NCBI GenBank assembly: GCA_016219645.1
Contig: JACRLR010000007.1
Location: forward strand, 248,001-312,000
Reading direction: 5' to 3'
Origin: Nitrospirota bacterium
GTDB taxonomy: Bacteria > Nitrospirota > Nitrospiria > Nitrospirales > Nitrospiraceae
Length of the DNA: 64,000 nt
Shown here piece by piece: positions 1,656 to 38,595 of this stretch (the stretch's first letter is position 1; each line of letters begins with the position of its first letter). The notes beneath the pieces are model-generated. The model worked only from the letters and a program-made list of their open reading frames with translations. It searched no databases and was not told the DNA's origin. The position numbers were made by a program, and so were the translations under genes.

Positions 1656-1895
1656 AGCGGCGCCTCCTGACTAAGCTTCATCCGGTTGCTCATTCTCCGT
1701 ACCTTGCCTCTGTCCGCTCGACTGCTGCCTGCGCTCTGACTGAAGGGCTGGCCCTGTTGTCAATCACTTTTTTATGAACTTTTTATTTGTTGATGGTGTC
1801 TGGTATCTCATGGAATTACCGTGATCGACTATTCCACAGAAGCAGGGAGGGACCTACTAAAGGGGGGGAAGGGGGGAGACCTGTGTGAAAGGCAA

Positions 1896-1980
1896 GTTTA
1901 TTTGGTTTATTTCGTTTATTTGGTTGAATCTGACCAGAGAATCCAAACAAATAAAACAAACCACATGAACCAGATCAGCT
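1896..1980. repeat. 9-bp-period degenerate repeat hairpin (array A1)
   Basis: Left arm reads as consecutive nonamers GTTTATTTG, GTTTATTTC, GTTTATTTG, GTTGAATCT. The right arm (about 1941-1980) carries the complementary type, for example AAATAAAAC and GAACCAGAT. The two arms can fold on each other. It lies upstream of the multicopper oxidase. Confidence 0.75.
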
Positions 1981-2344
1981 GAAGATCGAGGATCCGCAGG
2001 CAGCATGAACCGCTTTTCGTCTGTATCGGACAGGGAAAGCCGACTTTGCCGATTGCTTGATGGGAACCACCAATCGGCTCAGTCGATGCGAAACGACCGT
2101 CACCTTCGATCAAGCAGCAAGCAAGCTGGAAGGATTCAGATCGATCTAGCAGGCTGCAGTGGAAGATCAATCAGCCCCCATCTCTGAAGAGATAACAAGC
2201 AAGCTTGGAATGAGCTTGTATATCGTTTGATGCCCGCAATCGAGGATCGACCGGGCCACCCTCTGAGAGAGATATGGAAGGGGGAAAGACGCGCAGTGGG
2301 GGACTCATCCGGGCTATCCTTTGGATACCGTAAACGAGCGAGCT

Positions 2345-2398
2345 TGGTCTGGTTCGAAACACGAAGAAACCAGATAGACCAAACAGACCAGACAGACG
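2345..2398. repeat. 9-bp-period degenerate repeat hairpin (array A2)
   Basis: TTGGTCTGGTT on the left, then nonamers AAACCAGAT, AGACCAAAC, AGACCAGAC on the right. Same unit family as the arrays at 8045, 17481, 37455 and 38477. Confidence 0.7.
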
Positions 2399-2420
2399 TT
2401 ATTTTTTTGCGGGCTTTTGA

Positions 2421-2691: not shown

Positions 2692-3360
2692 TTAGCGGAT
2701 CCGGTTGCTCACATTCTTGACGGTAAACTTGTAGTTCCCCGTCGCATCGGTGAACGTCACTGTATCGGCATAAGTCCCGACGGCGGTGTGCGTCGTGCTG
2801 CTCAGATCCAGCCCGGCGCTCAAGTCCTCGCCCAACACCCCCGTCGCCGTCCCCGTCGCCTGATGCGGCAAGCCATCGTAGAGCACGTCGTATCCGGTCA
2901 GCGTGATCACGGCATTGGCCTTGTTGATCGTGCTCTTCACGTTCTTGAGCGTATCTTTATAGTTGCCCGTCACGTCCGTAAAGGTGACCGTGTCGATATA
3001 CGTCCCCGCGTTGGTGTGCGACGTGACGCTCATATTTAGGCCAGCCAGGCTTTCGCCCAGCACCCCCGTCGCCGTGCCCGTCGCCTGGTGCGCGAACCCG
3101 TCATAGGTGCCGTAGTAGCCGGTCAGGCTAATCACCGCGTTGGCCTTGTTGATCGTGCTCTTCACGTTCTTAATCGTATCTTTGTAGTTGCCCGTCACGT
3201 CCGTAAAGGTGACCGTGTCGATATACGTCCCCGCGTTGGTGTGGGACGTGACGCTCATGTTCAGGCCGGCCAGGCTCTCGCCCAACACGCCCGTCGCCGT
3301 CCCCGTCGCCTGGTGCGCCGCCCCGTCGTAGGTCCCGTAGTACCCGGTCAGGACGAGCGT
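2692..3360 (-). pseudogene. Out-of-frame C-terminal part of LEPR-4
   Basis: This frame encodes two complete MBG repeats of the type GYYGTYDG...GVLGESLAGLNMSV...NTGNYK-like and the conserved C-terminus ending NVSNRIR. It belongs to the gene that starts at 7813 but is shifted by one base because of the 91-bp tandem duplication at 3270-3451. Removing one copy restores a single frame of 1,676 codons. As sequenced, this part has no start of its own and would not be translated as part of LEPR-4. Confidence 0.85.
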
Positions 3361-6300: not shown

Positions 6301-7813
6301 CCAGTGAGTTCCCCACCCCATCAAAGAACTCGACCGTGCCGATCGGAGCGCCTGCATCAGGAACCAAGGCTGTGACGGTCGCGGTGAGAGTGACCTGATC
6401 TCCATAGGTGGTGGCGTTTGTACTAGCGGAGATCGAGGTGGTCGTATTGACAGTCACCTCGTTAATCACGATGTCCACAGTACCGAACTGAGGATCATAG
6501 TTGTTGTTGCCGCTGAAGGTCCAGTCGGCTACGTGGGTCCCTATCGCGGTGAAGCTCGGACCCAAATCCAGGAGACCGCTCAAGTCCTCGCCGAGTACGC
6601 CTATTGCCGTGCCGGTCGCTCCATGTGGTTGATTGTCGAAGGCTCCGATAAAGCCGTTCACTGTGACGGACGCTGCTGCCTTATCGATATCCGCCAGAGC
6701 CGTGGCGACCGACGTCAGGTTGTAGTTGCCTGCATCTGCGCCGAAGAGGGTCGCGCCGATAAGGGTCACGGTTTTATTGAAGTCGGCGTCCGCATCGTTG
6801 AAGGTCGCAATACCACCGCCCAGGGCCACCTCGTCGAGACCGACAACTCCACTGAGATCGAGGTCTGTAAACAATACGAAGGCAGCAGTGGTGCCATCGT
6901 AGGCCCTGCTCTCCGCTCCGAAGCTGCCTGTGATGTTCTTCTGGTTGACTGTATGGTCGACCGCTACGGACGGACTGTCATTGAAGCTGTCGGTGCCGTT
7001 ATCGCCGCCGGTGAAGACTGCATGGATCGAATAGGAGCCGGCAGCGAGCTGAGTCAGAGTGGCAGCTGAGAGGGTGACGCTAAAGACCGAAGACAAGCCA
7101 CTGCCGGGGGTGGCACTGGAGGTGGCCCCCAGTGAATTATTCAGGGCATCAAAGAACTCCACCGTACCGATCGGGTTGGTCGTTCCGCCAGCCGAAGGCG
7201 TCACTGTCGCGGTAAAGGTCACATCGTCTCCATAGGTGGACGTAGCGGAACTGGCAGTGACCACGGTGCTTGTGTTGACATTGGCGTCCGTGAAGGCGTG
7301 GGTAGCCATAGCCCCGGACTCTTGGCCGGCGGCAGTCACTAAGAGAGTCGAGTTCCGGTACTGCTCCTCCACATACCAGGTCGTGCTGATGCTGCTGTTC
7401 ACCATCATGTCGTTGTCCGGCGCAATCCAATCTGCCACGCCGTCGCCGCTCACATCCGATCCCAGATGGGCCGTAAACCCGCCCATTCCGTCGACGACAT
7501 ACCAGGCTTCGTTGCCCGCCGGTCCCACGCCGGTCGTTGAGCCGCTGTAATCAGCCATGCCGTCGGTGCGGGTGACCTGGAAGCTCACCATTTCACCGGC
7601 TGAGAATTGTAAACCGTCGCCGGCCTGATTCGACGTGGTAATCACCGCTGTCTCGCGCGGCGCATAGTCCTGATGGTCGGTGGTCACCACCGCCGCAGTC
7701 ATGGGCGTGGCCGACAGCAGCAAACGTGGTTCCAGCGACTCCACTGTAAAATCATTGGCGCGCGGCTCACGTCGGTTACGCTTTTTGAGATTAAGCAGTT
7801 TCTTGAGCTTCAT
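3170..7813 (-). CDS. LEPR-4: giant MBG/YDG repeat protein with LEPR leader, frameshifted near 3' end
   Basis: 1,547 codons as sequenced. It starts MKLKKLLNLKKRNRREPRAN with a good ribosome site (AGGAG, 7 nt). The leader has the LEPR-XLL signature LEPRLLLSA around residues 28-36. An N-terminal module shared by three paralogues follows (DYAP..TAVITTSN; SDVSGDGVADW), then an Ig-like repeat, about ten YDG repeats (KVYDGTT...KTVTLTGA...AGNY) and MBG repeats (GxYDGxAHxATG...TNAG). Such proteins are usually surface-exposed adhesins or matrix proteins. No classical signal peptide is visible. The last 75 or so residues are out-of-frame nonsense caused by the 91-bp duplication; the true C-terminus is at 2692. 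Likely cargo of the export genes at 16-25 kb. Confidence 0.88.
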   Translation of the reverse strand: MKLKKLLNLKKRNRREPRANDFTVESLEPRLLLSATPMTAAVVTTDHQDYAPRETAVITTSNQAGDGLQFSAGEMVSFQVTRTDGMADYSGSTTGVGPAGNEAWYVVDGMGGFTAHLGSDVSGDGVADWIAPDNDMMVNSSISTTWYVEEQYRNSTLLVTAAGQESGAMATHAFTDANVNTSTVVTASSATSTYGDDVTFTATVTPSAGGTTNPIGTVEFFDALNNSLGATSSATPGSGLSSVFSVTLSAATLTQLAAGSYSIHAVFTGGDNGTDSFNDSPSVAVDHTVNQKNITGSFGAESRAYDGTTAAFVLFTDLDLSGVVGLDEVALGGGIATFNDADADFNKTVTLIGATLFGADAGNYNLTSVATALADIDKAAASVTVNGFIGAFDNQPHGATGTAIGVLGEDLSGLLDLGPSFTAIGTHVADWTFSGNNNYDPQFGTVDIVINEVTVNTTTSISASTNATTYGDQVTLTATVTALVPDAGAPIGTVEFFDGVGNSLGFGNFDGSLGLDSTFTLNIATLTAGLHNQIHAVFTAPATFFGSTSGSTIVDVSKATVTVTGFNGTYDGLAHGATVVGVVLGEDLSAGLVSDTFTNVPGGTANWNYTDLTGNYENASSAIAGTVEIVINKADVTPVDYIGVYDGAAHGATLVGVLGEILMTGPLHTNAGLFTDTINFIGGAGNYNDFSGDVITSISALEITGSFTANNKVYDGTTDATAQNTSLLGVIGLDDVTLDGGIATFDDANAGINKTVTLTGATLGGAAAGNYVLSPAAITDQASITALAITGSFTANNKVYDGTTAASVASTSLTGVLIGDLGLVDLSGGTATLADKNVGAGKTVTLTGATLTGVAAGKGDFTAANKVYDGNAVAFVVTRTLTGAILGDDVSLTGGTAAFDDANAGIGKTVTLTGAALTGADQGNYTLSLSPITTTANIVALGITGSFTADHKVYDGTTSASVASTSLTGVLAGDVGLVSLTGGTASFDDVLIVGDGKNVGTGKTVTLTGATLGGVASGNYSLLSVATTTADITALDITGSFAADSKVYDGTTLAAVSGTSLAGTIVGDDVILTFDQADFDTKDVGIDKTVTLLNAALFGTDAGNYNLTLVANALADITALQLDFSFTVDDKVYDGNTTATGLIGNLTGFIGTDDVDWDFGTVAFNSVIAGPTKLVNLTGLILIGVDAGNYSLASSFVQSTAAITQKQLTVTFTVNDKAYDGNTSVTGLVTTVDGVIAPDNVTLAFTSVAFNSSIVGPAKLVNMTGATLIGTEATNYSLASSTITSTAAITAKQLTASFAVNNKVYDGNTATTGLVMTLNGVIAPDNVSLTGGVATFDDANAGNGKTVTLTGLGITGTEATNYSLLSSTATSTANITKANATITVSGYTGVYDATAHGATGSATGIGGVNLNAGLNLGASFTNAPGGTANWSFSGGTNYNDANGSVAIVINKANATLVLTGYYGTYDGAAHQATGTATGVLGESLDARPDRVLRDLRRGGAPGDGDGDGRVGREPGRPEHERHVPHQRGDVYRHGHLYGRDGQLQRYD
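3270..3451. repeat. Exact 91-bp tandem duplication
   Basis: Positions 3270-3360 and 3361-3451 are identical over 91 bases. Since 91 is not a multiple of three, the duplication shifts the LEPR-4 reading frame. No substitutions separate the copies, so it is very recent or an assembly artefact. Confidence 0.95.
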
Positions 7814-8102
7814 GTTGGAATCTCCTGTTGGTTAGTGATGATGGGCCGCTGACGTATTTCGAATGGGGTTTCGCTCATGTCCGCTGTTGACGTCGACCTC
7901 AAATGACATGTTGTCGTCCTCTGCCTGCCGGAACCACTGGCGAATACATGGAGTATTTGTATGCTCGTCACTCACAAGAGACCATCCATCTTAGGTGCAG
8001 ACATACCCCTCTTTAGTTGGCCCCCATTGGAGGGAGTCGGAAGACTGGTTGATCTGGTTCATTTGGTTTGTTTTGTTTATTTGGTAGTTTCGCTCCAAGG
8101 CT
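7814..8102. other. LEPR-4 upstream region
   Basis: Contains the conserved leader of the LEPR family just before the start (ATCACTAACCAACAGGAG on the coding strand) and the array at 8045-8089. No gene seen. The motif ATCCATCTTAGGTGC at about 7983 recurs upstream of LEPR-2 at about 13730. Confidence 0.55.
8045..8089. repeat. 9-bp-period degenerate repeat (array A3)
   Basis: Successive nonamers TGGTTGATC, TGGTTCATT, TGGTTTGTT, TTGTTTATT, TGGTAGTTT. Only one strand orientation is present here, next to the LEPR-3 3' stem-loop. Confidence 0.75.
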
Positions 8103-8132
8103 CGGAGGTCATGCCACCTGGCATGACCTCCG
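8103..8132 (-). terminator. 3' stem-loop of LEPR-3
   Basis: Perfect 13-bp stem CGGAGGTCATGCC / GGCATGACCTCCG with a 4-nt loop, 14 bp past the ancestral LEPR-3 stop. It is the most regular of the four paralogous stem-loops. Confidence 0.7.
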
Positions 8133-8146
8133 ACCGTCGTGAGTGT

Positions 8147-8505
8147 TTAGAGAATCCGGTTGCTCACGTTCTTAACGGTAAACTTGTAGTTGCCCGTCAC
8201 ATCGGTGAAGGTCACGACATCGAGATAGGTCCCGACGTTGGTGTGCGTCGTGCTGCTCAAGTCCAGCCCGGCGCTCAAGTCCTCACCAAGCACGCCCGTC
8301 GCCGTCCCCGTCGCCGTATGCGCCAGGCCATCAAAGACCACGCTGTAGCCGGTCACGGTGATCACCGCGTTGGCCTTGTTGATCGTGCTCTTGACGTTCT
8401 TGATCGTATTCTTATAGTTGCCCGTCACGTCCGTGAAGGTCACGGCATCAATGTACGTGCCGGCATTCGTATGGCTCGTGACGCTCAGGTTCAGCCCGGC
8501 CAGGC
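8147..8505 (-). pseudogene. Out-of-frame C-terminal part of LEPR-3
   Basis: Encodes the last one and a half MBG repeats and the conserved tail NYKFTVKNVSNRIL, in a frame different from the main LEPR-3 reading frame. Comparison with the sister repeat at about 8685-8745 shows 37 bases missing at about 8505. Adding them back gives one frame of 738 residues from 10326 to 8147. As sequenced it lacks a start. Confidence 0.85.
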
Positions 8506-10326
8506 TCGCGCTGTCCCGTCATAGGTGCCGACATAGCCCGTCAACGAGATCGTCGCGTTCGCCTTGGCGATACTGCTGCTAACGTTCTTGACGGTATTCT
8601 TATAGTTGCCCGTCACATCGGTGAACGTCACCGTATCGAGATACGCGCCGGCATTCGTGTGCGACGTGACGCTCAGGTTCAGCCCGGCCAGGCTCTCGCC
8701 CAGGACCCCGGTGGCCGTTCCCGTCGCCTGGTGCGCTGTCCCGTCGTAGGTGCCGACATAGCCCGTCAACGAAATCGTCGCGTTCGCCTTGGCGATACTG
8801 CTGATGACGCTCCCGCTCGTACTGTTATAGTTTCCCGTGCTGTCAGTGAAGGTCCAGCTATCGCTGTAGATGCCGGCGTTGCTGTGCGGCGTACCGTTTA
8901 GAACCAGCCCACTCAGGCTCTCGCCCAACACACCAGTTGCGGTGACAGTGGCTGTATGAGCCGCTCCATCGTAGACACCGTGATAGCCACTAGTAACAAT
9001 CGTCGCGTTCGCTTTGGTAATGGTGATGCTGTTGGTCCCGCTGGCGGGGTTATAGTTGGGATTGGCGAAGGTCCAGCTCTCTGTATAGCTGCCCACGTTG
9101 GTGGGCTTCGTCATAATCAGGGAACCGCTCAAGTCCTCACCAGGGGCGCCGACGATCGTGGCCCCATGGGCCAACCCGTCATAGACTCCCGTGTAGTCGC
9201 TCACGACGACAGTGGCCGGAGTGATGTCAGCCTGGTCACCAGTGACCGAGTCCAAGATATAGTTGCCGGCGGCCGAACCGGTGAGGATTCCACCAGTGAA
9301 CGTCACAACTTTGTTGACGCCGACATTTGCCGTATCGAAGTTTGCCGAACCGGTCAGGCCCACGTTGCCCAGATCGATCAGCTCGACATTGTTCAACGTG
9401 GCAACTCCGGGCGCTACAGTAGTACCGTCGTAGACCTTGGAAACGTCGGCCGTGAAGCGGCCAGTGATGTGCTTCTGAGTCACCTCGTGCGAGATGTTTG
9501 CAGAGGTGCTGTCATTGAAACTGCCTGCTGTGCCGGTGAAGACTGCATGGACCGAATGAACGCCGGACGTAAGAGTGAACGTGAAGGCGTTCGTTTTAAA
9601 TTGCACGACCCCATCAGCACCGCCGCCACTGCTGACGGTCTCGATCCCCAGTGATATTCCATCGACGAAGAACTCCACACTCCCGGTCGGGTCAACAGTC
9701 CCAGCTGCTGCCGTAACCGTCGCGGTGAAATCTACATTCGTTCCATACACGGTGGTGGCGGCAGTAGCCGTGAGCACGGTCGTCGTGTTCGTCCCGGCGT
9801 CTGTAAAGGCCTGCGTCACCATAGCCCCGGACTCTTGACCGACAGCCGTCACTAAGAGAGAGGAGTTCCGATACTGTTCCTCCACAAACCAGGTGGTACT
9901 GATGCTGCTGTTGACGGTGAGATCGTTGTCCGGCGCAATCCAGTCGGCCACGCCGTCGCCGCTCACATCCGATCCCAGATGGGCGGTAAATCCGCCGATA
10001 CCGTCGGTGACATACCAGGCTTCGTTGCCGGTCGGTCCCACGCCGGATGTTGAGCCGCTGTATTCCGCCATGCCGTCGGTGCGGCTCACCTGAAAGCGAA
10101 CTAATTCACCGGCCCCGAATTGCAGGCCGTCGCCATTGGTATTCGACGTAGTAATCACCGCGGTCTCACCCGGCGCATAATCCACATGGTCGGTGGTCAC
10201 CACGGCGGCCGTCATGGGTGTGGCCGACAGCAGCAGGCGGGGTTCCAGCGACTCGAGTACAAAAGCATTGGCGCGGGGCTTACGGCTGTTACGTTTCTTG
10301 AGACTGAACAGTTTCTTGAATTTCAT
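8491..10326 (-). CDS. LEPR-3: MBG/YDG repeat protein with LEPR leader, frameshifted near 3' end
   Basis: 611 codons from the MKFKKLF start at 10326. This start is chosen over one ten codons earlier because GGGAG sits 7-8 nt before it and all paralogues begin alike. LEPRLLLSATPM is followed by the shared N-terminal module, one Ig-like repeat, one YDG repeat (KVYDGTTVAPG) and about five MBG repeats. The frame ends prematurely in TARAWPG because 37 bp of a repeat have been lost. Predicted to be exported and exposed like the other LEPR proteins. The family is known; the export route is inferred from the neighbours. A mobile-element-like insertion lies in its 5' leader. Confidence 0.87.
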   Translation of the reverse strand: MKFKKLFSLKKRNSRKPRANAFVLESLEPRLLLSATPMTAAVVTTDHVDYAPGETAVITTSNTNGDGLQFGAGELVRFQVSRTDGMAEYSGSTSGVGPTGNEAWYVTDGIGGFTAHLGSDVSGDGVADWIAPDNDLTVNSSISTTWFVEEQYRNSSLLVTAVGQESGAMVTQAFTDAGTNTTTVLTATAATTVYGTNVDFTATVTAAAGTVDPTGSVEFFVDGISLGIETVSSGGGADGVVQFKTNAFTFTLTSGVHSVHAVFTGTAGSFNDSTSANISHEVTQKHITGRFTADVSKVYDGTTVAPGVATLNNVELIDLGNVGLTGSANFDTANVGVNKVVTFTGGILTGSAAGNYILDSVTGDQADITPATVVVSDYTGVYDGLAHGATIVGAPGEDLSGSLIMTKPTNVGSYTESWTFANPNYNPASGTNSITITKANATIVTSGYHGVYDGAAHTATVTATGVLGESLSGLVLNGTPHSNAGIYSDSWTFTDSTGNYNSTSGSVISSIAKANATISLTGYVGTYDGTAHQATGTATGVLGESLAGLNLSVTSHTNAGAYLDTVTFTDVTGNYKNTVKNVSSSIAKANATISLTGYVGTYDGTARAWPG

Positions 10327-10348
10327 GTTGGAATCTCCCGTTGGTTTA

Positions 10349-10527
10349 ACCCGCATAATTCACGAGGGCTTCTACTGCAACCGCCGATACGCTGTTCCGA
10401 CGGGCGTGCTCGCCACTCAGTCGGTCAACATACTGTTCAAGTATGCTTCCCTCCTTCCCGGCTGCGCTTGCCCCTCTCATGACGCGTCTCAGCCGTTTCG
10501 TCACGAACCCTCGTGAATAATGCGGGC
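10349..10527. mobile_element. 179-bp MITE-like element in the LEPR-3 5' leader
   Basis: Terminal inverted repeats CCCGCATAATTCACGAGGG (10350-10368) and its complement at 10508-10526 match at 18 of 19 positions, and TA flanks both ends. The paralogous leaders of LEPR-2 and LEPR-4 read GGTTAGTGAT without interruption, so they act as empty sites. It has no coding capacity and would need a transposase in trans. Confidence 0.75.
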
Positions 10528-14229: not shown

Positions 14230-15891
14230 TTAGAGGATCCTGCTGCTGACGTTCTTGACAGTATTCTTATAGTTGCCCGTCACGTCCGTGAACGTCACAA
14301 CATCGAGATATGTGCCCACATTGCTGTGCGTCGTGCTGCTCAGGTCCAGCCCGGCGCTCAGGTCCTCACCGTTGACGCCGGTCGCCGTCCCCGTCGCCGT
14401 ATGCGCCAGGCCATCGTAGATCACATCATAGCCGGTCACCGTGATTACGGCATTGGCTTGGTTGATCGTGCTCTTCACGTTCTTGAGCGTATTCTTATAG
14501 TTGCCCGTCACGTCCGTGAAGGTCACCGTGTCGATGTACACGCCGGCATTCGTGTGGGATGTGACGCTCATGTTCAGCCCGCTCAGGTCCTCCCCCAAGA
14601 CCCCCGTCGCCGTGCCCGTCGCCTGGTGCGAGGACCCGTCGTAGGTGCCGTAGTAGCCCGTCAGGCTGATCACCGCGTTCGCCTGCTTGATCGTGCTCTT
14701 CGCGTTCTTGAGCGTATTCTTATAGTTGCCCGTCACGTCGGTGAAGGTCACCGCATCGATGTACACGCCCGCATTCGCATTCGTATGGGACGTGACGCTC
14801 AGGTCCAGCCCGGCGCTCAGGTCCTCACCGTTGACGCCGGTTGCCGTGCCCGTCGCCTCGTGTGCGGCCCCGTCGTAGGTTCCATAGTAGCCGGTCAGGA
14901 CGAGCGTGGCGTTCGCCTTGGCGATGTTCGCCGACGTCGTATTGACCGACGTCAGGCTATAGTTGCTCGCGTCCAGACCGCCGAGCGTCGCCCCCGTGAG
15001 TGTCACGGTCTTGTTGCTGCCCACATTCGCATCGACGAAGGCCGCAGTGCCGCCGCTCATGCTCACATCGTCACTCGCGATGACTCCAGCAAGCGTCTGG
15101 GTCTGCACGGTCGCCGTCGTCGTGCCGTCGTAGGTCTTGTTCGCTACTGTGAAGCTGGCCGTGAGACTCTTCTGGCTCACCGTCTGTTCGAGATTTCCGG
15201 AGGTGCTGCTCTTGTATCGAAGATGTTCTAGCCACTCATGGTGGCCTCGCCAATGGTTCTCTTGCGGCCCCCCATCATGCCGGTGATCGTCCGGCGGTCG
15301 GTGTAGATCCCGATGTTCGTGTGCGTTGTGCCGCTCAGATCCAGCCCACTCAGGCTCTCGCCCTGTACCGCCGGTAAACACGGCGTGGATCGCATGAGTG
15401 CCGGCCGTGAAGTTCGATACCGAAATGGTAAAGATTGCGGTCGAGCGACTGCCTCTACTGGCGGTGTCATCGATTCCCAGTGACCTTGTTCCATCAAAGA
15501 ACTCGACAGAACCTACCGGTCTGGCAGCTCCGTCCGCAGCCGTCACTCTTGCCGTAAACGTGACCGCATCTCCATAGATGGACGTGGCGGCGCTGGAGGT
15601 CAGAGTGGTAGTCGTACTTATGCCGCAATTGATGGCGAGGTCGTCCCTCCATCCGTTCGCGCCTGGCTTCCGGTGAGAGTGATTGCTGCCTCCGTTGCCC
15701 ATTGTGTCCGAAATGCAAATCACTGCGCTCTCGACATGCGAATGGCCCACGTGGTCGTGAGTCACATCCACGGGCGTCATGGGTGTGGCTGACAGCATCA
15801 AGCGGGGTTCCAGCGATTCCAGCACAAACGCATTGGCGCGCGGCGCGCGGCGGTGACGTTTCTTAAGATTGAACAGGTTTGTAAGTTTCAC
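14230..15891 (-). CDS. LEPR-1: short MBG/YDG repeat protein with LEPR leader and internal scar
   Basis: 553 aa. The GTG at 15891 is preferred because GGGAG precedes it and the product then begins (V)KLTNLFNLKKRHRRAPRAN like its paralogues. The leader reads LEPRLMLSATPM. The SDVSGDG N-terminal module is replaced by a His-rich stretch (DHVGHSHVE...GSNHSHRK). An Ig-like repeat, one YDG repeat (KTYDGTTTATV) and three MBG repeats follow, ending NVSSRIL. At 15215-15368 about 150 bp of an MBG repeat is inserted out of frame: the used frame reads GREPEWAGSERH..., while GESLSGLDLSGTTHTN is in another frame. Because the insert is about 150 bp, the downstream frame is kept. It is the first cargo gene after the export operon. 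Confidence 0.87.
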   Translation of the reverse strand: MKLTNLFNLKKRHRRAPRANAFVLESLEPRLMLSATPMTPVDVTHDHVGHSHVESAVICISDTMGNGGSNHSHRKPGANGWRDDLAINCGISTTTTLTSSAATSIYGDAVTFTARVTAADGAARPVGSVEFFDGTRSLGIDDTASRGSRSTAIFTISVSNFTAGTHAIHAVFTGGTGREPEWAGSERHNAHEHRDLHRPPDDHRHDGGPQENHWRGHHEWLEHLRYKSSTSGNLEQTVSQKSLTASFTVANKTYDGTTTATVQTQTLAGVIASDDVSMSGGTAAFVDANVGSNKTVTLTGATLGGLDASNYSLTSVNTTSANIAKANATLVLTGYYGTYDGAAHEATGTATGVNGEDLSAGLDLSVTSHTNANAGVYIDAVTFTDVTGNYKNTLKNAKSTIKQANAVISLTGYYGTYDGSSHQATGTATGVLGEDLSGLNMSVTSHTNAGVYIDTVTFTDVTGNYKNTLKNVKSTINQANAVITVTGYDVIYDGLAHTATGTATGVNGEDLSAGLDLSSTTHSNVGTYLDVVTFTDVTGNYKNTVKNVSSRIL

Positions 15892-15998
15892 GCGAAATCT
15901 CCCTTGGTGATTGGTGATAAGAGCCATGGAATAGTTATACAACGGCGCCATGACGCGGGCATTCCCCGGAGGTTGTCCCTCAAAAGTGGGGGCTGGGC

Positions 15999-16025
15999 TG
16001 GTTTGTTTGGTTTATTTAGTTCGAG
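15999..16025. repeat. 9-bp-period repeat (array A4)
   Basis: TGGTTTGTT, TGGTTTATT, TAGTTCGAG. Lies between tolC-like and LEPR-1 genes, next to the 6-bp array. Confidence 0.6.
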
Positions 16026-16111: not shown

Positions 16112-17443
16112 CTACCGCAGTTCTTCGACTTGTCCCATCGCGCGCGCCAGATTCACGCGCGAGGCGTTCGCCCGAAACAAGCCGTCGATCATGTTATCCC
16201 GCGCGCGTGAGAGAGAAAAGAGCGAGTTGGATAACTCCAACGTGTTCGAACTCAGCACCCGCACCCGTTCTCGGGCGAGCTGCACTTCGGTCAGCGCCGC
16301 CTTGAGCCCGTCCTTGGCGATCCGGAGCTGTTCTTTCGCCGAGACGAGCGTCACCAGCGCTTCCCGCAACTCCATCGTGATCTGGCGCGTCACGATGTCC
16401 ATCTTGATCTCTTCTTGAAGAAGACGGCTGCGGCTCTCGCCGATCCGCCCCTGCCGTTGGCCCCCATCAAAGATGGGGACCGACAAGGTTACTCCGACGT
16501 TGTAGGTGCTCAGCGTGCTGTCAATATGGTTGCCGATGAGCCCGTAATTGCCATCCGCCTGCAGCGACGGCAGTCGCTCCCCCTTGACCGAACTCAGCAT
16601 GAGGCTCGACACCTGCAATCGCTGCTCCTGGGCCTTGAGTTCCGGCCGCTTGACGAACGCCACCTCCCGGGCATAGTCCTGGGTGGGCACCGGCTCATCC
16701 GGCGCTTTGAGTTCATCGGTGAGGATGAGCGTCGCATCAAAGGTGATGCCCAAGGCATTGGTCAGGATCAGCTTGGTCCGCTCGACATCACTCTTGGCCA
16801 ACTCCAAGCGTTGCCGTTCATTCTCCAGTTGGGTTTCCAGCCTGGCCGTATCGAGGCCCGTGGCCATTCCGCCGCTCTGCCGGCTTTTAATGTAGGCCAC
16901 GAGTTCCTTGTACAGCTCCACATTCGCCGTCCGTGCGGCCACGCTCTCGACGTTCCGCAGAACTTCCAAGTAATTCAAGGCCACAGTCGCCATCGTGTCA
17001 TTCTTCGTCGTCTCGGATTCCCCTTCCGCGACGGCCAGGGCCGCGCGCGAGGCGCGCCACCGTTCAATCAAGCTCCAACTGAAGAGCGACTGCGACAGGG
17101 TGCCTCGGGCATCGGCGACATTAAAGGGATCGCTCCGGATCGGCGCCCCACCAAGCGTCCCTTGAAAGAAGGTCTGATTGTTGTATTTGGCCGACGAGGC
17201 CAGGTTCGGCAAGAGGGCGCCGAGTTGCGTGGTGGCGACGCCCCGCGCCGCTTCAATCCGTTCTTTGTACAAGCGCACATTGGGATTCTTGTCCAGCGCC
17301 GCCTCAATGGCGTCCTTCAAACTCAGCTTGAGGACCGGCAGCTCCGGTGGGGGCTGCAGCGACGACTCGGCAGCTTGGCTGTGCCCCGCACACAGAAGAC
17401 CAGCCACAAAGATTGCCAACATCACGCCGGTGTAGATTCGCAT
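16112..17443 (-). CDS. TolC-family outer membrane efflux/secretion protein
   Basis: 443 aa with a cleavable signal peptide (LAIFVAGLLCAGHSQA|AES). Two OEP repeats of long coiled-coil helices follow, with family markers LKDAIEAALDKNPNVRL early and LSVPIFDGGQRQGRIGESR in the second half. TolC proteins trimerise into an outer-membrane barrel plus periplasmic tunnel and are the exit duct of type I secretion and efflux machines. It is the last export gene before four LEPR cargo genes, 133 bp after a HlyD-type adaptor, which supports a secretion role. Confidence 0.92.
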   Translation of the reverse strand: MRIYTGVMLAIFVAGLLCAGHSQAAESSLQPPPELPVLKLSLKDAIEAALDKNPNVRLYKERIEAARGVATTQLGALLPNLASSAKYNNQTFFQGTLGGAPIRSDPFNVADARGTLSQSLFSWSLIERWRASRAALAVAEGESETTKNDTMATVALNYLEVLRNVESVAARTANVELYKELVAYIKSRQSGGMATGLDTARLETQLENERQRLELAKSDVERTKLILTNALGITFDATLILTDELKAPDEPVPTQDYAREVAFVKRPELKAQEQRLQVSSLMLSSVKGERLPSLQADGNYGLIGNHIDSTLSTYNVGVTLSVPIFDGGQRQGRIGESRSRLLQEEIKMDIVTRQITMELREALVTLVSAKEQLRIAKDGLKAALTEVQLARERVRVLSSNTLELSNSLFSLSRARDNMIDGLFRANASRVNLARAMGQVEELR

Positions 17444-17480
17444 ACGGTCGCAGTTCCTTCACTACAAGAAGATCGTGATT

Positions 17481-17573
17481 TGGTCTGTCTGGTCTATTCG
17501 GTCTATCTGGTTGATCTAGTTATTCTCGTTCAACCAAACACACGAGACAGACCGAATAGACCAGACAGACCAG
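17481..17573. repeat. 9-bp-period repeat hairpin with 24-bp perfect arms (array A5)
   Basis: TGGTCTGTC, TGGTCTATT, CGGTCTATC, TGGTTGATC, TAGTTATTC on the left. The first 24 bases (17481-17504) are exactly repeated inverted at 17549-17572. It fills the gap between the HlyD- and TolC-type genes. Confidence 0.85.
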
Positions 17574-17576
17574 TCG

Positions 17577-18461
17577 CTAAGGCCCCTCGGCTGATGACAG
17601 GTGAAAATCCACGGTACACGCCAGGCCGGCGGAAATTGCATTGTTCGGATTCGGCAGTTCCAAGCGCACCCCGAATGTGCCGCTGGCGCTGTCGACGACT
17701 TTGTTCACCACCATAACCTTCGCTTGAAGAACCGGCTGCCCCTTTCCTTCCGGACGTACATCGGCTTTCATGCCGGCTTTCAACTTCCCGAGCAGCGAGA
17801 GCGGCGCAAACACCTCCACTCGCAATGGGTTGATCTGCGCCAGTTTCATCACAGGCGTCTGCTGGCGGGCCATCTCGCCGGGAGACAGCAGCCGATCGAC
17901 AACGACGCCGGCAATCGGACTTCGAATCGTGCGCAGCTGCAGCGCAGCTGTGGCGCGATTCAATTCCAATTCAGCCTGGCGCTTGTGTTCCGATGCATCC
18001 CGATAGGCCGATTCCGCCAAGGCCTTTTCCGTCTGGGCCTCATCGACTTCGTGTTGGGCAATGGAGTTGGTCTTGAACAATTCCTGAGCCCGTTCGAGTT
18101 TCCGGCTGGTAAACCCCATCTTCAGCTGACTGCTCTTCAACGCCGCTTCTGCCTCCGCCTTGGCTTTCGCCAACGCAACAGTCGCCTCTTCGAAGCTCGA
18201 TTCGAGTGTCAAGATCACCTGTCCCTTCGCGACCCAATCTCCCCGGTCCACCGGCACCGTTTGAATGAGACCCTCCACCGGGGTCCCGATGGAAATCTCG
18301 TCATAGGGTGTGATCACGCAGGCCGTTCCCGCTGCCCATACAGACGGCACCGACAGGGCAGAGAGTGCCGCTGCGACGATCAGGGTGCCCGTCGCACACT
18401 GCCCCTTCAGCCGCCATTTGTGTGGCTGTTTCACTTCCTGACATTCCACGAACATGTCCAT
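17577..18461 (-). CDS. HlyD/RND-type periplasmic adaptor protein
   Basis: 294 aa. Signal peptide (ALSALSVPSVWA|AG), a lipoyl half-motif (GLIQTVPVDRGDWVAKGQVIL), an alpha-helical hairpin (residues about 80-165, rich in Ala/Glu/Lys), the second lipoyl half (LRTIRSPIAGVVVDRLLSPG) and a beta-barrel domain. Membrane-fusion proteins of this kind bridge an inner-membrane motor and TolC. No RND or ABC pump gene accompanies it, so its inner-membrane partner is more likely the SecA/M50 module upstream. The gap to the SecA-like gene (97 bp) holds a 7-bp-period array. Confidence 0.9.
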   Translation of the reverse strand: MDMFVECQEVKQPHKWRLKGQCATGTLIVAAALSALSVPSVWAAGTACVITPYDEISIGTPVEGLIQTVPVDRGDWVAKGQVILTLESSFEEATVALAKAKAEAEAALKSSQLKMGFTSRKLERAQELFKTNSIAQHEVDEAQTEKALAESAYRDASEHKRQAELELNRATAALQLRTIRSPIAGVVVDRLLSPGEMARQQTPVMKLAQINPLRVEVFAPLSLLGKLKAGMKADVRPEGKGQPVLQAKVMVVNKVVDSASGTFGVRLELPNPNNAISAGLACTVDFHLSSAEGP

Positions 18462-18508
18462 TCAATCACCCTATTCCATTGTCCCGACTTGGGAACTGCT
18501 CCGGCCCC

Positions 18509-18538
18509 CTTCAGCCTTCAGTCTTCAGCCTATCAACC
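18509..18538. repeat. 7-bp-period repeat (array B2)
   Basis: CTTCAGC, CTTCAGT, CTTCAGC, CTATCAA in a row, between SecA-like and HlyD-type genes. Confidence 0.7.
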
Positions 18539-18558
18539 TACGCAGGTTCCCGATTGCC

Positions 18559-20550
18559 TCATTCCAATCGTCCGGAAAACGCGAGCGAAGTTTCCAACGA
18601 ATCCTCATGCCGCAACAGATCCCGGCGAATCCGTGCGTGCAAGGACTCGGCCGACAACTGGGCCTGCCGCATGAGAAACACAGCCGGTTTGCCCTGCAGC
18701 GGCTTACCTCGACTCACCAGCGCCTGCGCCGCCCACCGCCACAAGAGGCGTCGCGACGTTGTCATGATCTCATCCTCCAGCGACGAGACAATCTCAAAAC
18801 TTCCCGGATCCCCCTGACGGCCGCTGCGGCCATAGAGCTGTCGGTCGATGCGCCCGGCTTCGTGCCGTTCTGTGGCCAACACGTGCAGACCTCCCGCCTC
18901 CGCCACCTTCGGCAGTAACTTGATATCCGTGCCACGGCCGGCCATGTTCGTGGCTACCGTAACGCGACCAGGAAGACCTGCCTTGGAAACGATATCCGCC
19001 TCTTCTTTGTCCTGGCGTGCGTTGAGGACGACGTGCGGAATCCTGGCCGCTGTGAGTTTCACACTCAGAATCTCCGAAGCGGAGACCGATCTGGTCCCCA
19101 CCAGAACAGGCCGCCCCTGTTTATGGAGCGTTGTGATATGATCGACGACCGCCTCCCACTTCTCCTCCGCCGTCGAGAACAGCCACTCTCCCACACATTT
19201 CCGCTGCCGCGGGCGATTCGTCGGAACCGTCACGGTGGCCAGGCGATACACTTGCCACAATTCGGTGGCGACCTCCTGACCCGTGCCGGTCATCCCGGCC
19301 AGCCACAAATACCGGCGAAAGAACCGCTGGTAGGTGATCCGGGCCAGCGACGCCTGCATCGGCGTGAGGGGGCATCCTTCCTTCAATTCGATCATTTGAT
19401 GGAGACCCTGTTCCCACGAGCGGTCCTCCATGATGCGCCCCGTGTACTCGTCGATGATCTGGACCTTTTCGTCCCTGACGAGATAATGGGCATCGCGATT
19501 GAACAAATGGAGGGCCGTCAGCGCCTGCCGGACCAGCTCTTCACGCCGCCGCGGCCCGGACCAGAAGCCGGTGAGATCCTTCGTCCGTTCCGTCAACAGC
19601 GCCTGCCCCTCCGGCGTCAGGCGAACGCTCCGTTCCCGCGGATCGATCTCGAAATCGGACCCCCGTGTCAGTGCATGCGCGAGCTGCAACGCCTTCTCAT
19701 AGAGAGGCTTCTCCGGCACCTGCCCGCCGCTGTTGGCGATAATGAGCGGCACCCGCGCCTCATCCACCAGGATGCTGTCCGCCTCGTCGACGATACCGAA
19801 GCACAACCCGCGGAGCACCAAATTCCGGAGTCTCGTCGCATCGCCATACAACTTCTCCAGCTGGAGTTGAATACGATTGGGCTGCCGCCCGACGGCCAGG
19901 CGATCACGCAGATAATCGAACACCAGTTCCTTGTTCGTACAGTAGGTCACATCGCAGGCATAGGCTGCCCGGCGCGCCACAGGGCTCTGCTCGTGGGTGA
20001 TGACTCCCACCGTCAGACCCAACATCTGATAGATCGGACCCATCTCTTCCGCGTCTCGCGCGGTCAGATAGTCGTTCACGGTAATCAGATGCACCGGCAC
20101 GCCGGCCAGCGCCGCCGTCGCGGCTGCCAATGTGGCAGTCAAGGTCTTTCCCTCTCCCGTCGCCATCTCGGCCACACAACCGTTGAGCAGAACCCACCCT
20201 CCGAGGACCTGCACGTCATAGTGCCGTTGGCCGATCGTCCGGTGGGCCACCTCCCGCACCAGAGCGAATGAGCGAAATACCAGTTCGTTGCTGAAACCCT
20301 CGAGCCGGAGTCTTTCTCGTAGTTGCACGACCTCTTTGCGCAGCTGGTCATCTCGCAAGCCGGACAGAGTACGGCCCTGTTCTGCGACCGGCCCTATCAC
20401 ATCGGTCCTTGTCGCCGTACGCTCGCGGAGCCGCCGCATGATGGGGCTCGCGAACTTGACCCCCTGGCGGTCGAACCAGCTCTCGCGTGGCACTGCCCGT
20501 TCCGGATAGGCGCTATGCAGCGCCGTTTGTTGACTCGCGATATCAAACAT
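18559..20550 (-). CDS. Accessory SecA-like ATPase
   Basis: 663 aa from the ATG at 20550, which overlaps the upstream M50 gene stop by 8 nt (ATGTTTGA); this coupling decides the start over a frame opening 33 codons earlier. SecA DEAD-motor signatures are present: MATGEGKT (about residues 130-136), DEADSILVDEARVPLII, GMTGTG, and NBD2 ATNMAGRGTDIKL with GRSGRQGDPG. It is much shorter than housekeeping SecA (roughly 800-900 aa), with a short C-terminal scaffold and no Cys-rich SecB-binding tail. SecA hydrolyses ATP to push unfolded proteins across the inner membrane. Between HlyD- and TolC-type genes and next to LEPR cargo, it is probably a dedicated motor, not the essential SecA. Confidence 0.9.
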   Translation of the reverse strand: MFDIASQQTALHSAYPERAVPRESWFDRQGVKFASPIMRRLRERTATRTDVIGPVAEQGRTLSGLRDDQLRKEVVQLRERLRLEGFSNELVFRSFALVREVAHRTIGQRHYDVQVLGGWVLLNGCVAEMATGEGKTLTATLAAATAALAGVPVHLITVNDYLTARDAEEMGPIYQMLGLTVGVITHEQSPVARRAAYACDVTYCTNKELVFDYLRDRLAVGRQPNRIQLQLEKLYGDATRLRNLVLRGLCFGIVDEADSILVDEARVPLIIANSGGQVPEKPLYEKALQLAHALTRGSDFEIDPRERSVRLTPEGQALLTERTKDLTGFWSGPRRREELVRQALTALHLFNRDAHYLVRDEKVQIIDEYTGRIMEDRSWEQGLHQMIELKEGCPLTPMQASLARITYQRFFRRYLWLAGMTGTGQEVATELWQVYRLATVTVPTNRPRQRKCVGEWLFSTAEEKWEAVVDHITTLHKQGRPVLVGTRSVSASEILSVKLTAARIPHVVLNARQDKEEADIVSKAGLPGRVTVATNMAGRGTDIKLLPKVAEAGGLHVLATERHEAGRIDRQLYGRSGRQGDPGSFEIVSSLEDEIMTTSRRLLWRWAAQALVSRGKPLQGKPAVFLMRQAQLSAESLHARIRRDLLRHEDSLETSLAFSGRLE

Positions 20551-22690
20551 TGAATCGCGACAAGAATAATTGTCGTCCCTGGCGATACCATTGGGCCATG
20601 AGCGGCGCCCATCCATGATCGAACCGTACATACACGCGTCCGCCGACATTCACCACACCCAGCTCGACGGGCAATTGAAGATCTACCTGAAAGACCTTTC
20701 GAAGGGCCTTCTGGCCCTTCGGGTCTTTCGGGTCCATGGGAACTTGTCCGCCGCCATCGCTTCCGAGCGCCGGACTCGGCAGTTCATCGCTCGCCGCCGG
20801 GACCAGACGCGACACCCCGGCATCGATCGGACTGACCAGCCGTTCGGCCAAGCGCACCTGGACTTGCTTCGTACTGTGACGGATCAGATCGATATCGGTC
20901 TGATCCACGACCGTTCGCACGGTCAACGTATTCAGATCCACCACGTGGGCCAGCACGTCTCCGCGATGCACGAATCGGCCGGGCAAATCATCCACGCGCG
21001 AGACGACCAGTGTGCCGTCAACTTTTGCGGTAATGACGAGATCCTGCACCTGTTCTCTCGTGCGGGCGAGTTTCTCTTCGACGTACCGCTTTTCTTCTTC
21101 CAGGATCTTCGCCTTCACGAGGTTTTCCGGAATCTGCTCGCGAATGCGCGCGTTGATCTCCCGGAGGCGTGCCTCGAGCACGGTGAGCTGCGCTGTCAAC
21201 ACCGAGTCCTGACAGACCACCAGCACATCACCTCGCGACACCTTCGATCCCGGAATCCCCACGACCTTCTCGACAAATCCATCGGCCCCGGCACGCACGA
21301 TCGCTTCGTCCGGAATCCACACGACACCTTCCGCGCGCGTGCGAAACGGCACAGGGGTAAAACAGAGCGCCGCGATGATGACCGCCACCGTTCCACTCGT
21401 GACCGCGATCGCCCGCCCACGCACGCGACGGATGCGCGCGCTCGTGAACAGATAGCCCAGCCCCTTTCCCAGCGGAATCAGGAACCACGTGACCGCCGTA
21501 ACCACGGCGAAGAACATGCCGAGCGCGAACCACTGATCGGTCAGATACATGAGGATGACGAATACGATGAACACCCGATAGAGAAAGGCGCTGACAGAAT
21601 ACCCGACAAACCAGACGCGCTCGCCCGGCGTGGCATGAGGAACCTGCGCCTCCTCGCAGCCAAAGGGATAACGCTCACAGAGATAGCCGATGTACTTGTT
21701 GGCCCGCTGGCCCAGATTGGGAATCTCTGTGAGATCCGCAAGCATGTGGTACCCGTCGAACCGGAGCAAGGGATTGCCGTTGAAGAGGACGGTCGAAATC
21801 CCGGCAATCATGATGGTGTTATAGGCCAGTGTGCGGACGATACCGGGCTCGACACTCACCCACACAAAGATGGCGATCGACGCGAGCACCAATTCGACGA
21901 TCATGCCTGCCGCGCCGACGACTGCCCTCTGCCACTTACTGGCGAAGGCCGATGAAGCCGAGGCGTCGACATAGGGCACCGGCGAGAACACGAGCAGCAT
22001 GATTCCCATCTCGTGCACTTCCCCGCCGAACGCCTTGACGGCAAAGGCGTGGCCGAACTCGTGCAGCGCTTTGATGATCGGAAACAGAAACCAGAGCAGC
22101 ACTAGATTCTGCGGTGTGCTGATCTGGTCGATGAGATTGGCCGTGAGATCCGACCAGTGCGTGGCGCCGATCAGCACGCCGGGAATCACGATCGCAAGCC
22201 ACACCAACGCCCCGCCCCACCCGAAGAAGGGCCGGACTAACGGCACGAAGGTCTGCAGCAGCCGTTCCGGATCGAAGAGGGGGAACTGCCAGGCAAAGAC
22301 ATTCATCAGTTTGCGCTGCCACTTCTTCTGTTTGGTGCGCTCATGGCGATGCAAGAGTTCCGCGATGTCGGGGGGGATATCACACTGCAGCACATCGGTT
22401 GAGTGAAGCTGGCTCAAGAGCTGCACCACCTGAGGCTGGGTCGGCGCATCGTCGCCTAGCTTCGTCGAGACGAGTTCCCAGATCTCCTGGACCGTGCGGC
22501 GCCCATCCATCAGGCCGATAAAGGCATAGGCGGCTGGAGAAAAGCGATGATATCGTTCGTTCGACTGATCCTGGAGCACGTACCAGGTCTGGCCTCGATA
22601 CTGGTGGCGATGCAGTTGCGCATGGCTCCGCAGACGCGGCGCCAGGTTCGCCACGCGGTACCAGGAAGGGCTAAAGAGAGCTTCACTCAT
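20543..22690 (-). CDS. PqqD-like / M50 site-2 protease / HlyD fusion protein
   Basis: 715 aa. Residues about 20-110 resemble a PqqD/RRE-type peptide-binding domain (YHRFSPAAYAFIGLMDGRRT; VVQLLSQLHSTDVL). Membrane helices follow, with the M50 zinc site HEFGH at 210-214 and NPLLRFDGYHML at 306-317, whose Asp is the expected third ligand. The C-terminal third is a HlyD-like adaptor with lipoyl halves (AGADGFVEKVVGIPGSKVSRGD; VDGTLVVSRV) and a coiled coil. Similar PqqD-M50-HlyD fusions occur with export systems and peptide-maturation loci. Inference: it could bind and clip the LEPR leader while anchoring the channel. Translationally coupled to the SecA-like gene. Confidence 0.88.
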   Translation of the reverse strand: MSEALFSPSWYRVANLAPRLRSHAQLHRHQYRGQTWYVLQDQSNERYHRFSPAAYAFIGLMDGRRTVQEIWELVSTKLGDDAPTQPQVVQLLSQLHSTDVLQCDIPPDIAELLHRHERTKQKKWQRKLMNVFAWQFPLFDPERLLQTFVPLVRPFFGWGGALVWLAIVIPGVLIGATHWSDLTANLIDQISTPQNLVLLWFLFPIIKALHEFGHAFAVKAFGGEVHEMGIMLLVFSPVPYVDASASSAFASKWQRAVVGAAGMIVELVLASIAIFVWVSVEPGIVRTLAYNTIMIAGISTVLFNGNPLLRFDGYHMLADLTEIPNLGQRANKYIGYLCERYPFGCEEAQVPHATPGERVWFVGYSVSAFLYRVFIVFVILMYLTDQWFALGMFFAVVTAVTWFLIPLGKGLGYLFTSARIRRVRGRAIAVTSGTVAVIIAALCFTPVPFRTRAEGVVWIPDEAIVRAGADGFVEKVVGIPGSKVSRGDVLVVCQDSVLTAQLTVLEARLREINARIREQIPENLVKAKILEEEKRYVEEKLARTREQVQDLVITAKVDGTLVVSRVDDLPGRFVHRGDVLAHVVDLNTLTVRTVVDQTDIDLIRHSTKQVQVRLAERLVSPIDAGVSRLVPAASDELPSPALGSDGGGQVPMDPKDPKGQKALRKVFQVDLQLPVELGVVNVGGRVYVRFDHGWAPLMAQWYRQGRQLFLSRFNV

Positions 22691-22700
22691 AAAGTTGCAA

Positions 22701-22834
22701 GTGGTGAGTGGTGAGTGGTGAGTGGCGAGTGGACGAATCGGTCCATAATCATGAGGCTAGAAACTCGCAACTCGAAACCTCCCGCGCCTTGCGCTTCCTA
22801 CTTCCTACTAGCTACTTGCTACTTGCCAGTTACT
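22701..22834. repeat. 7-bp-period repeat hairpin (array B3)
   Basis: GTGGTGA three times and GTGGCGA on the left (22701-22732), GAAACTC/GCAACTC/GAAACCT in the middle, and CTTCCTA/CTTCCTA/CTAGCTA/CTTGCTA/CTTGCCA on the right (from about 22793). It fills the gap between the GAF-HlyD and M50 genes. Confidence 0.75.
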
Positions 22835-24757: not shown

Positions 24758-25111
24758 AGCTATTATTCCGGTGGATGTGATGACGCGGCTCTAATATTCC
24801 TCCAGGGGACCCCTGAAAACGTCCGCTGCATCCGGGCGCATCTCTCCCGTTAGTTGTTGAACGAAACTAACCAGAGATGCCGGGAAAATCAGACTTATGA
24901 CCCCCTTACGAGGGCTTGCACGTTTCACAGTCTAGCAGACTGTTTTTGGATCACTAGTAAATTGCGAAATGATTTTCCCCCGGAGGCTCCCCGATTCAAG
25001 AAATGCCTTGCGGACCTCAGATGGCAGATCGTGCTGATCGCGCCCTTCTTCTGCTCCATTTCTATCTCATCTCCGCTGTGATACGTTGTACGCACTGAGG
25101 AATCTTTTCGC
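24758..25111. other. Divergent intergenic region between the export operon and glgB
   Basis: 354 bp between two outward-facing genes, so promoters for both should lie here; I cannot place -35/-10 boxes confidently. It also holds a hairpin followed by T residues (listed). Confidence 0.5.
24927..24947 (+). terminator. Terminator-like hairpin
   Basis: ACAGTCT-AGC-AGACTGT followed by TTTT. Small 7-bp stem in a divergent region, so its job is unclear; it may stop readthrough toward glgB. Confidence 0.4.
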
Positions 25112-27313: not shown

Positions 27314-27440
27314 GGCAGGATGCTCAAAAATGCCGTCCAGCAAGGCCGCAGCGAGTGAAGAACCGAGGCGTACCCTCTGGGTACGTTGAGGATCTGAACG
27401 ATGCGAGAACGATGCTGGCGGCGTTTTTCAGCATCCTGCC
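27314..27440. repeat. 127-bp palindromic repeat element downstream of glgB
   Basis: Ends are GGCAGGATGCT and its inverse AGCATCCTGCC. Pairing continues with AAAAATGCCG against CGGCGTTTTT and includes an inner hairpin around TACCCTCTGGGTA. It has the form of a non-coding MITE or REP-type dispersed repeat and can double as a transcription stop for glgB. Confidence 0.7.
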
Positions 27441-37454: not shown

Positions 37455-37520
37455 TGGTTTGTTTTATTTCTCCGGTTCATCTGGTCTGTCTGGTTTAACC
37501 AAACAAACCACACCAAATAA
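37455..37520. repeat. 9-bp-period repeat hairpin (array A6)
   Basis: TGGTTTGTT, TTATTTCTC, CGGTTCATC, TGGTCTGTC, TGGTTTAAC, then CAAACAAAC, CACACCAAA. The centre TGGTTTAACCAAACA folds directly. Confidence 0.75.
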
Positions 37521-37570
37521 CGGTCTTCTCCTGCTGGCGCGCTACTTCAACATCCTGGATCACATACAAA

Positions 37571-38266: not shown

Positions 38267-38595
38267 GGTACCCTCCGTTCTGGATAAGTCAGTAATAATG
38301 AAGATCTACGGCCCTAGCTGAGCTACGATACTGCGCTTGGCCTGGAGACTTCAAGAGGGACAAGTTCTCGAAAGTTTTGCAATACTAGAATCTTTTTCCT
38401 TACCCCAATGACCTTATGAATTTCGAGCTTCGTGAAAGGTGCACGACGGAGTCGGATACCAAGAAGCCGTATAGTCTGGTTCAACCAGACAAACAAACAA
38501 ACAAAACAGACCCGATCTACCAGATCGATTCACCTAGAGGGCAAGGATGGCAGGACGGCACGATGAAATAACCAGCATATGGAGAAGAAGACCTA
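38267..38595. other. Region between peroxiredoxin start and tRNA-Arg
   Basis: Should contain the peroxiredoxin promoter (reading minus). It holds the 9-bp-period array at 38477-38530 just beyond the tRNA 3' end. No gene. Confidence 0.5.
38477..38530. repeat. 9-bp-period repeat hairpin (array A7)
   Basis: TGGTTCAAC, CAGACAAAC, AAACAAACA, AAACAGACC, CGATCTACC, AGATCGATT. Possible 3' stop for tRNA-Arg. Confidence 0.65.

Follow-up and report, generated by a model that had tools for sequence, protein, structure and literature searches.

The closest described relatives of the repeats reported here are the GGGAATC arrays of Xanthomonas, in which heterogeneous GGGANTN units form ∼185 arrays per genome, ∼90% of them intergenic (Rehm et al. 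2015, PMC4692102). These arrays lie a mean of 28 nt from the nearer ORF, are stop-proximal and rare between divergent genes, and include 70-75 convergent inverted pairs per genome; in two species they mostly occupy matching gene pairs, with extensive variation, and the authors found no function for them (PMC4692102). The GGGGA(C/T)T heptamer arrays of Nostoc are of the same kind and are related to the cyanobacterial STRR (PMC4692102). Two other systems are relevant: the REP/BIME/REPIN sequences, which are conserved and linked to a RAYT gene (PMC3116915), and BrickBuilt of Porphyromonas gingivalis, a MITE that holds a minisatellite with a 23-bp unit in 19 copies and that carries promoter elements (PMC4596501). 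We found nothing in the literature specific to this sequence or to Nitrospira repeats.

The window, by which we mean the whole 64,000-nt stretch that was analysed, corresponds to C7:248001-312000 of a 3.65-Mb draft genome. An earlier note on this DNA had proposed that seven of its intergenic gaps contain a family of hairpins with a 9-bp period. Indeed, the pattern TGGTYTRTYTGGTYTRTY, with ≤3 mismatches allowed, has 25 matches in the window, every one of them at the seven named places, compared to a mean of 0.83 and a maximum of 3 in shuffled sequences. Runs of TGGTYTRTY are in register at all seven places and the 9-bp period is kept. Each of the seven places holds an element, but the remnant or core listed in Table 1 had been missed. 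A scan of the window against Rfam at the gathering score reported two tRNAs only, with no match for the elements.

The best case is the element at 17481-17573, which has an MFE of -62 kcal/mol when folded on the gene strand. It lies within a same-strand run of genes that also holds genes for SecA-like and M50/HlyD proteins. Pairing arms on both strands, which the note had described as usual, are found in most elements of the genome (see below) and are strongest at 17481, but the hairpin is weak or absent at 2345, 15999 and 37455 and the array at 8045 is one-armed (Table 1). The surrounding minus-strand genes form an export-like cluster (16112-22690) encoding M50 peptidase/HlyD/PqqD, SecA-like, HlyD-type fusion and outer membrane efflux proteins, which adjoins proteins with YDG and Ig-like repeats (3170-7813, 8491-10356 and 14230-15951).

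Table 1. Repeat elements and neighbouring features in the window
Feature	Position	Strand	Folding z	Remark
Period-9 element, T-rich subtype	1894..1972		-2.4	two arms, imperfect hairpin
Period-9 element	2344..2399		-1.4	left arm short, right arm 4 units; then TTATTTTTTTG on +
Period-9 array, one-armed	8046..8090	+		separate GC-rich palindrome after it, ~8105-8130
Period-9 array, short, essentially one-armed	15990..16025	+	+0.3	orthologous gap: one-armed array in G039, period-6 GGTTGA array in G018
Outer membrane efflux protein gene	16112..17443	-		downstream neighbour of 17481 element
Period-9 hairpin	17481..17573		-11.6	left arm TGGTCTGTC.TGGTCTATT.CGGTCTATC..., right arm its reverse complement; outer stem ~25 bp, near-perfect
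17481 element, TGGT-strand arm	17481..17525	+		5 units
17481 element, TGGT-strand arm	17528..17572	-		5 units
HlyD-type membrane fusion protein gene	17577..18461	-		stop codon 4 bp from 17481 element
Period-7 inverted array pair	22694..22827			GTGGTGA / CTACTTG words; sister hairpin class
Period-9 remnant or core	24849..24871	+		GTTAGTTGTTGAACGAAACTAAC; fuller period-9 elements at same place in G018 and G039
Pure T-element	27316..27438			CAGGATGCTCAAAAATGCC...GGCGTTTTTCAGCATCCTG; between convergent genes; period-9 hairpin at same place in G018 and G039
Period-9 element	37455..37510		-1.6	followed by AATAACGGTCTTCT transition piece
T-element right half, decayed	37531..37557	+		flanks 37455 element
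Period-9 element	38474..38522			peroxiredoxin gene on one side, tRNA-Arg on other

The family is abundant in the genome. We examined a sample of 852 kb (23% of the genome), with home-made gene calls from a simple hexamer caller, and scanned it for arms using a fixed 9-position profile of TGGTYTRTY at a threshold of 20 bits. The profile was held fixed because iterative refitting drifted to generic T-rich sequence; a reversed-pattern control of the pattern searches was uninformative because the word is mirror-symmetric. Intergenic DNA in the sample contains 217 arms of at least 20 bits, while Markov shuffles of the intergenic sequence contain 2-3; for arms of at least 40 bits, the numbers are 171 and 0. 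Similarly, the period-9 autocorrelation of intergenic DNA, which had been set as the check on the proposed family, is strong (z = 27 at lag 9, with further peaks at 18, 27 and 36). The arms group into 119 elements, which extrapolates to about 510 in 3.65 Mb.

The architecture of these elements is polar. Hairpins in head-to-head arrangement, led by the G/T-rich arm, account for 92/119 (88 with arm order '><', 2 with '><<' and 2 with '><><'), and the remaining 27 are one-armed (19 '<' and 8 '>'). Since the order '<>' is not found among the 119, the G/T-rich strand always points to the hairpin tip. The period, said to be strict, is so within an arm, but the phase breaks between arms. T-rich and C-rich subtypes exist, and C/T composition is correlated between the two arms of one element (r = 0.76), while neighbouring elements are not alike. 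There are no near-identical copies in the 852 kb, and the best matches between elements are barely above those of unit-shuffled sequences. Thus, the copies are not simple duplicates of one another, as the note had stated, and recent duplication within the genome is rejected as their source.

These properties place the elements close to the Xanthomonas and Nostoc heptamers, with which they share degenerate short units of fixed and free positions in many intergenic copies, a stop-proximal position, scarcity in divergent gaps, convergent inverted pairs, and occurrence at the same gene pairs in relatives with variable length and sequence. They differ from the heptamers in that the unit is 9 bp with GG rather than GGG, the phylum is different, inverted pairs are the rule, and some copies are nested in a terminator-like palindrome. 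Because of the 9-bp unit with GG only, the period-9 family is a variant of this kind of array that falls outside the GGGAATC family proper; with GG only, a strong G-quadruplex is not expected. Cyanobacterial short tandem repeats were well chosen as the nearest analogy, but the accompanying claim that no known class has such a structure is mistaken, since the Xanthomonas arrays have it (PMC4692102).

The resemblance to other classes is more limited. Like REP/BIME/REPIN (PMC3116915), whose REP hairpins form in ssDNA or mRNA, the elements are extragenic palindromes in hundreds of copies, but their sequence drifts, their arms are arrays, and they have no conserved palindromic core and do not track Y1. 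As in BrickBuilt, a tandem array can lie within an intergenic element with inverted-repeat ends (compare the period-9 and period-6 arms in T-elements, below), although most period-9 elements are without such ends. With intrinsic (Rho-independent) terminators they share a stable hairpin directly after the stop codon, but not the U-tract or the strand preference. The direct repeats with unique spacers that characterize CRISPR are not found; units abut at period 9 and the arms are inverted.

Almost all elements are intergenic, and they lie near stop codons. Just 7/119 are within called genes, and among gaps that leave 60 or more spare bases the median position is 0.13 of the gap, measured from the stop side (KS p = 7e-6). 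Their density per kb is 0.99 in codirectional gaps and 0.95 in convergent gaps, but 0.49 in divergent gaps; several convergent gaps are filled flush, from stop codon to stop codon. Many elements sit inside operons. Of 81 codirectional elements, 32 are ≤30 bp from the stop and ≤40 bp from the start, which leaves so little spare DNA that a separate promoter has no room. Neither the orientation of the tip motif relative to gene direction (7 versus 9) nor the strand of one-armed elements relative to that of the gene (8 versus 8) gave any signal of preference.

Folding likewise does not distinguish the strands. The mean folding energy is -40.2 kcal/mol for the sense strand and -40.8 for the antisense strand, the T count after the element is equal (2.95 and 2.95) with no excess of U downstream, and the number of G-U pairs, each of them an A-C mismatch in the opposite strand, shows no strand preference (226 sense versus 250 antisense). 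A first count of U-tract terminators was discarded, as the T-rich 5' arm itself satisfies the rule. With no U-tract and with sense and antisense folding alike, these sequence tests reject a standard intrinsic terminator. The RNA MFE of real hairpins is no better than that of chimeras that combine the arms of different elements (P = 0.67), and Watson-Crick similarity of the arms is slightly above that of permuted arms (z = 2.1); together, these two results do not establish selection for the RNA hairpin itself. Compensatory evolution of the arms is rejected because chimeric hairpins fold equally well, which leaves the composition subtype and the z of 2.1. Most of the pairing between arms would be expected from any two arrays of the word. 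It is the word and the subtype that are conserved, and the pairing is largely their consequence.

A second dispersed palindrome, the T-element, is found in the same DNA. It has the form CAGGATGCTGAAAAAGTCC...GGACTTTTTCAGCATCCTG(CTAG) with interchangeable interiors, sometimes begins at a TAG stop codon, and is present in 25 complete copies in 852 kb (for example G000:C16:101485-101610). Judged by its sequence, with an A5-stem-T5 form and MITE-like ends, it resembles a bidirectional intrinsic terminator. At several sites, the period-9 element alternates with a T-element or is nested within one. Recognizable T-element ends flank only 10/119 period-9 elements, however, and a general origin of the family inside T-elements is rejected on that count. 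Inverted period-6 arms also occur, some of them inside T-elements, as do the AGGTTA/AGGTCG arms at G000:C16:112166-112317, C16:133225-133380 and C7:14213-14365. The intergenic DNA of the 852 kb further contains 52 period-7 arrays of varied words, and for 31 of these the gap also holds an inverted partner.

To follow the elements through evolution, we used congeners, which are Nitrospira MAGs diverged by ∼20% at the DNA level, many of them incomplete. The 17481 site retains a period-9 element in all seven congeners shown, with a clear hairpin in most. The flanks of the site are ∼75-83% identical among the seven, while units, lengths and loops differ; unit sequence has turned over almost completely, and the word is recognizable in every congener examined. 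In 107 syntenic gene pairs, the presence of elements (own/relative) was +/+ in 12 comparisons, +/- in 7, -/+ in 4 and -/- in 151; element presence is strongly correlated between genomes. Orthologous elements have an identity of 0.59, compared to 0.51 for unrelated pairs and ∼0.8 for the better-aligned flanks, which agrees with the earlier claim that the period is kept while the sequence drifts. Unit order and length thus change fast, although outer units are often similar at individual orthologous sites. A gain is also indicated: at C16:114296, an element lies between TAA and the Shine-Dalgarno sequence both here and in G018, while the gap in G035 is short, as would follow from a gain into a short operonic gap. 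In this one comparison with an empty site, there is no target-site duplication.

The family is widespread within the genus and patchy beyond it. A two-unit pattern is present in 30/32 genus genomes, with 0 to 173 matches, while a 21-base pattern is present in 6/95 genera of a phylum sample. The cultured nitrite oxidiser Nitrospira moscoviensis also has such elements. Among the matches listed in a three-unit scan of GTDB genomes, there are also deltaproteobacteria, WOR-3, Aminicenantes, Aquificota, Methylomirabilis and others; some distant matches in named cultures resemble coding repeats. Hairpins make up 67 of 90 arrays at Nitrospiraceae loci, 3 of 53 in other phyla and 1 of 29 in viral contigs. 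In other phyla (L064, L065, L073, L023), the word arrays are one-armed and follow one strand along the contig, and one viral contig record (L238, IMGVR_UViG_3300011339_000736) has 14 word arrays on a single strand. Y1 (RAYT-type) transposase genes do not track element number. The Y1 domain (PF01797) was undetected in G004 (92% complete, 93 pattern matches), G012 (173), G016 (106) and G042 (114), some of these element-rich genomes being incomplete, and it is present in G032 and G041 despite few matches (8 and 3). A RAYT-driven REPIN is therefore rejected.

We consider the elements to be resident non-coding palindromic minisatellites that are turned over in register and whose RNA hairpin provides an intercistronic or 3' structure, a reading to which we give a probability of about 45%. 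Two TGGTYTRTY arrays, head to head, would occasionally be gained downstream of a stop codon, ahead of the next gene, and would then be held in place over a long time. Slippage, together with arm-to-arm or copy-to-copy exchange in register, would preserve the word and the period while scrambling the units. Where it acts at all, the mRNA hairpin after the stop codon may form an intercistronic or 3'-end barrier that protects or processes the message or separates convergent transcripts, rather than a switch or a standard terminator. The main rival is neutral or selfish persistence, in which degenerate microsatellites without function survive where insertion harms least. The stop-side bias and the scarcity in divergent gaps are what such tolerance predicts, and the lack of asymmetry between sense and antisense, the weak covariation of the arms, the patchy spread and the failure of the Xanthomonas authors to find a function (PMC4692102) all fit it. 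We nonetheless think it unlikely, although worth serious attention, as sites last across the divergence of the congeners with their sequence replaced, and at 17481 the word is recognizable in every one, which plain decay would not produce. The elements could instead terminate transcription, either as intrinsic terminators with a hairpin only or with the help of Rho, and in both directions between convergent genes. This would account for their position directly after stop codons, for several convergent gaps that are filled exactly from one stop codon to the other, and for two sites at which a relative has a T-element in place of the period-9 hairpin. The absence of a downstream U excess, the equal folding and G-U pairing of the two strands, and the codirectional copies that leave no room for a new promoter, including the one in the conserved export cluster at 17481, make this improbable.

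The minisatellite reading does not account for the one-armed arrays of this word in several other phyla. A dedicated activity common to these phyla and Nitrospira, either a protein that binds the arrays or an enzyme that copies reiteratively, could make or maintain the arrays, with the 9-mer selected as hairpins in Nitrospira and as one-armed arrays in deltaproteobacteria, WOR-3, Aminicenantes, Aquificota and others, but we regard this as distinctly improbable. A little less credible still is a protein platform, in which each 9-mer would be a binding site for a hypothetical nucleoid or RNA-binding protein and the word would be selected rather than the pairing. Such a platform agrees with the apparently stronger constraint on the word than on pairing and with the mostly hairpin-free arrays of other phyla; against it, congeners differ widely in copy number, with between 0 and more than 170 pattern matches. 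Lowest in our estimation is mobility of the REPIN/MITE type, driven by a transposase. The hundreds of intergenic palindromes scattered over the genome, the putative gain at C16:114296, and the location of some elements inside T-elements, which have clear terminal inverted repeats, are as expected of mobile elements, but Y1 was undetected in the four element-rich genomes and present in two element-poor ones, near-identical copies are absent from the 852 kb, and T-element ends are confined to a small minority of elements.

The elements are real and poorly described, with a function that is putative. The repeat kind known from Xanthomonas and Nostoc is broader than G-quadruplex heptamers, as a unit of another length is present in hundreds of copies in one genus. 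Because sites outlive sequences, the elements are good natural material for learning what holds a bacterial repeat in place despite its free letters, and their presence in the cultured N. moscoviensis makes RNA-level roles directly testable. The same genome also holds period-7 and period-6 hairpins of similar build.
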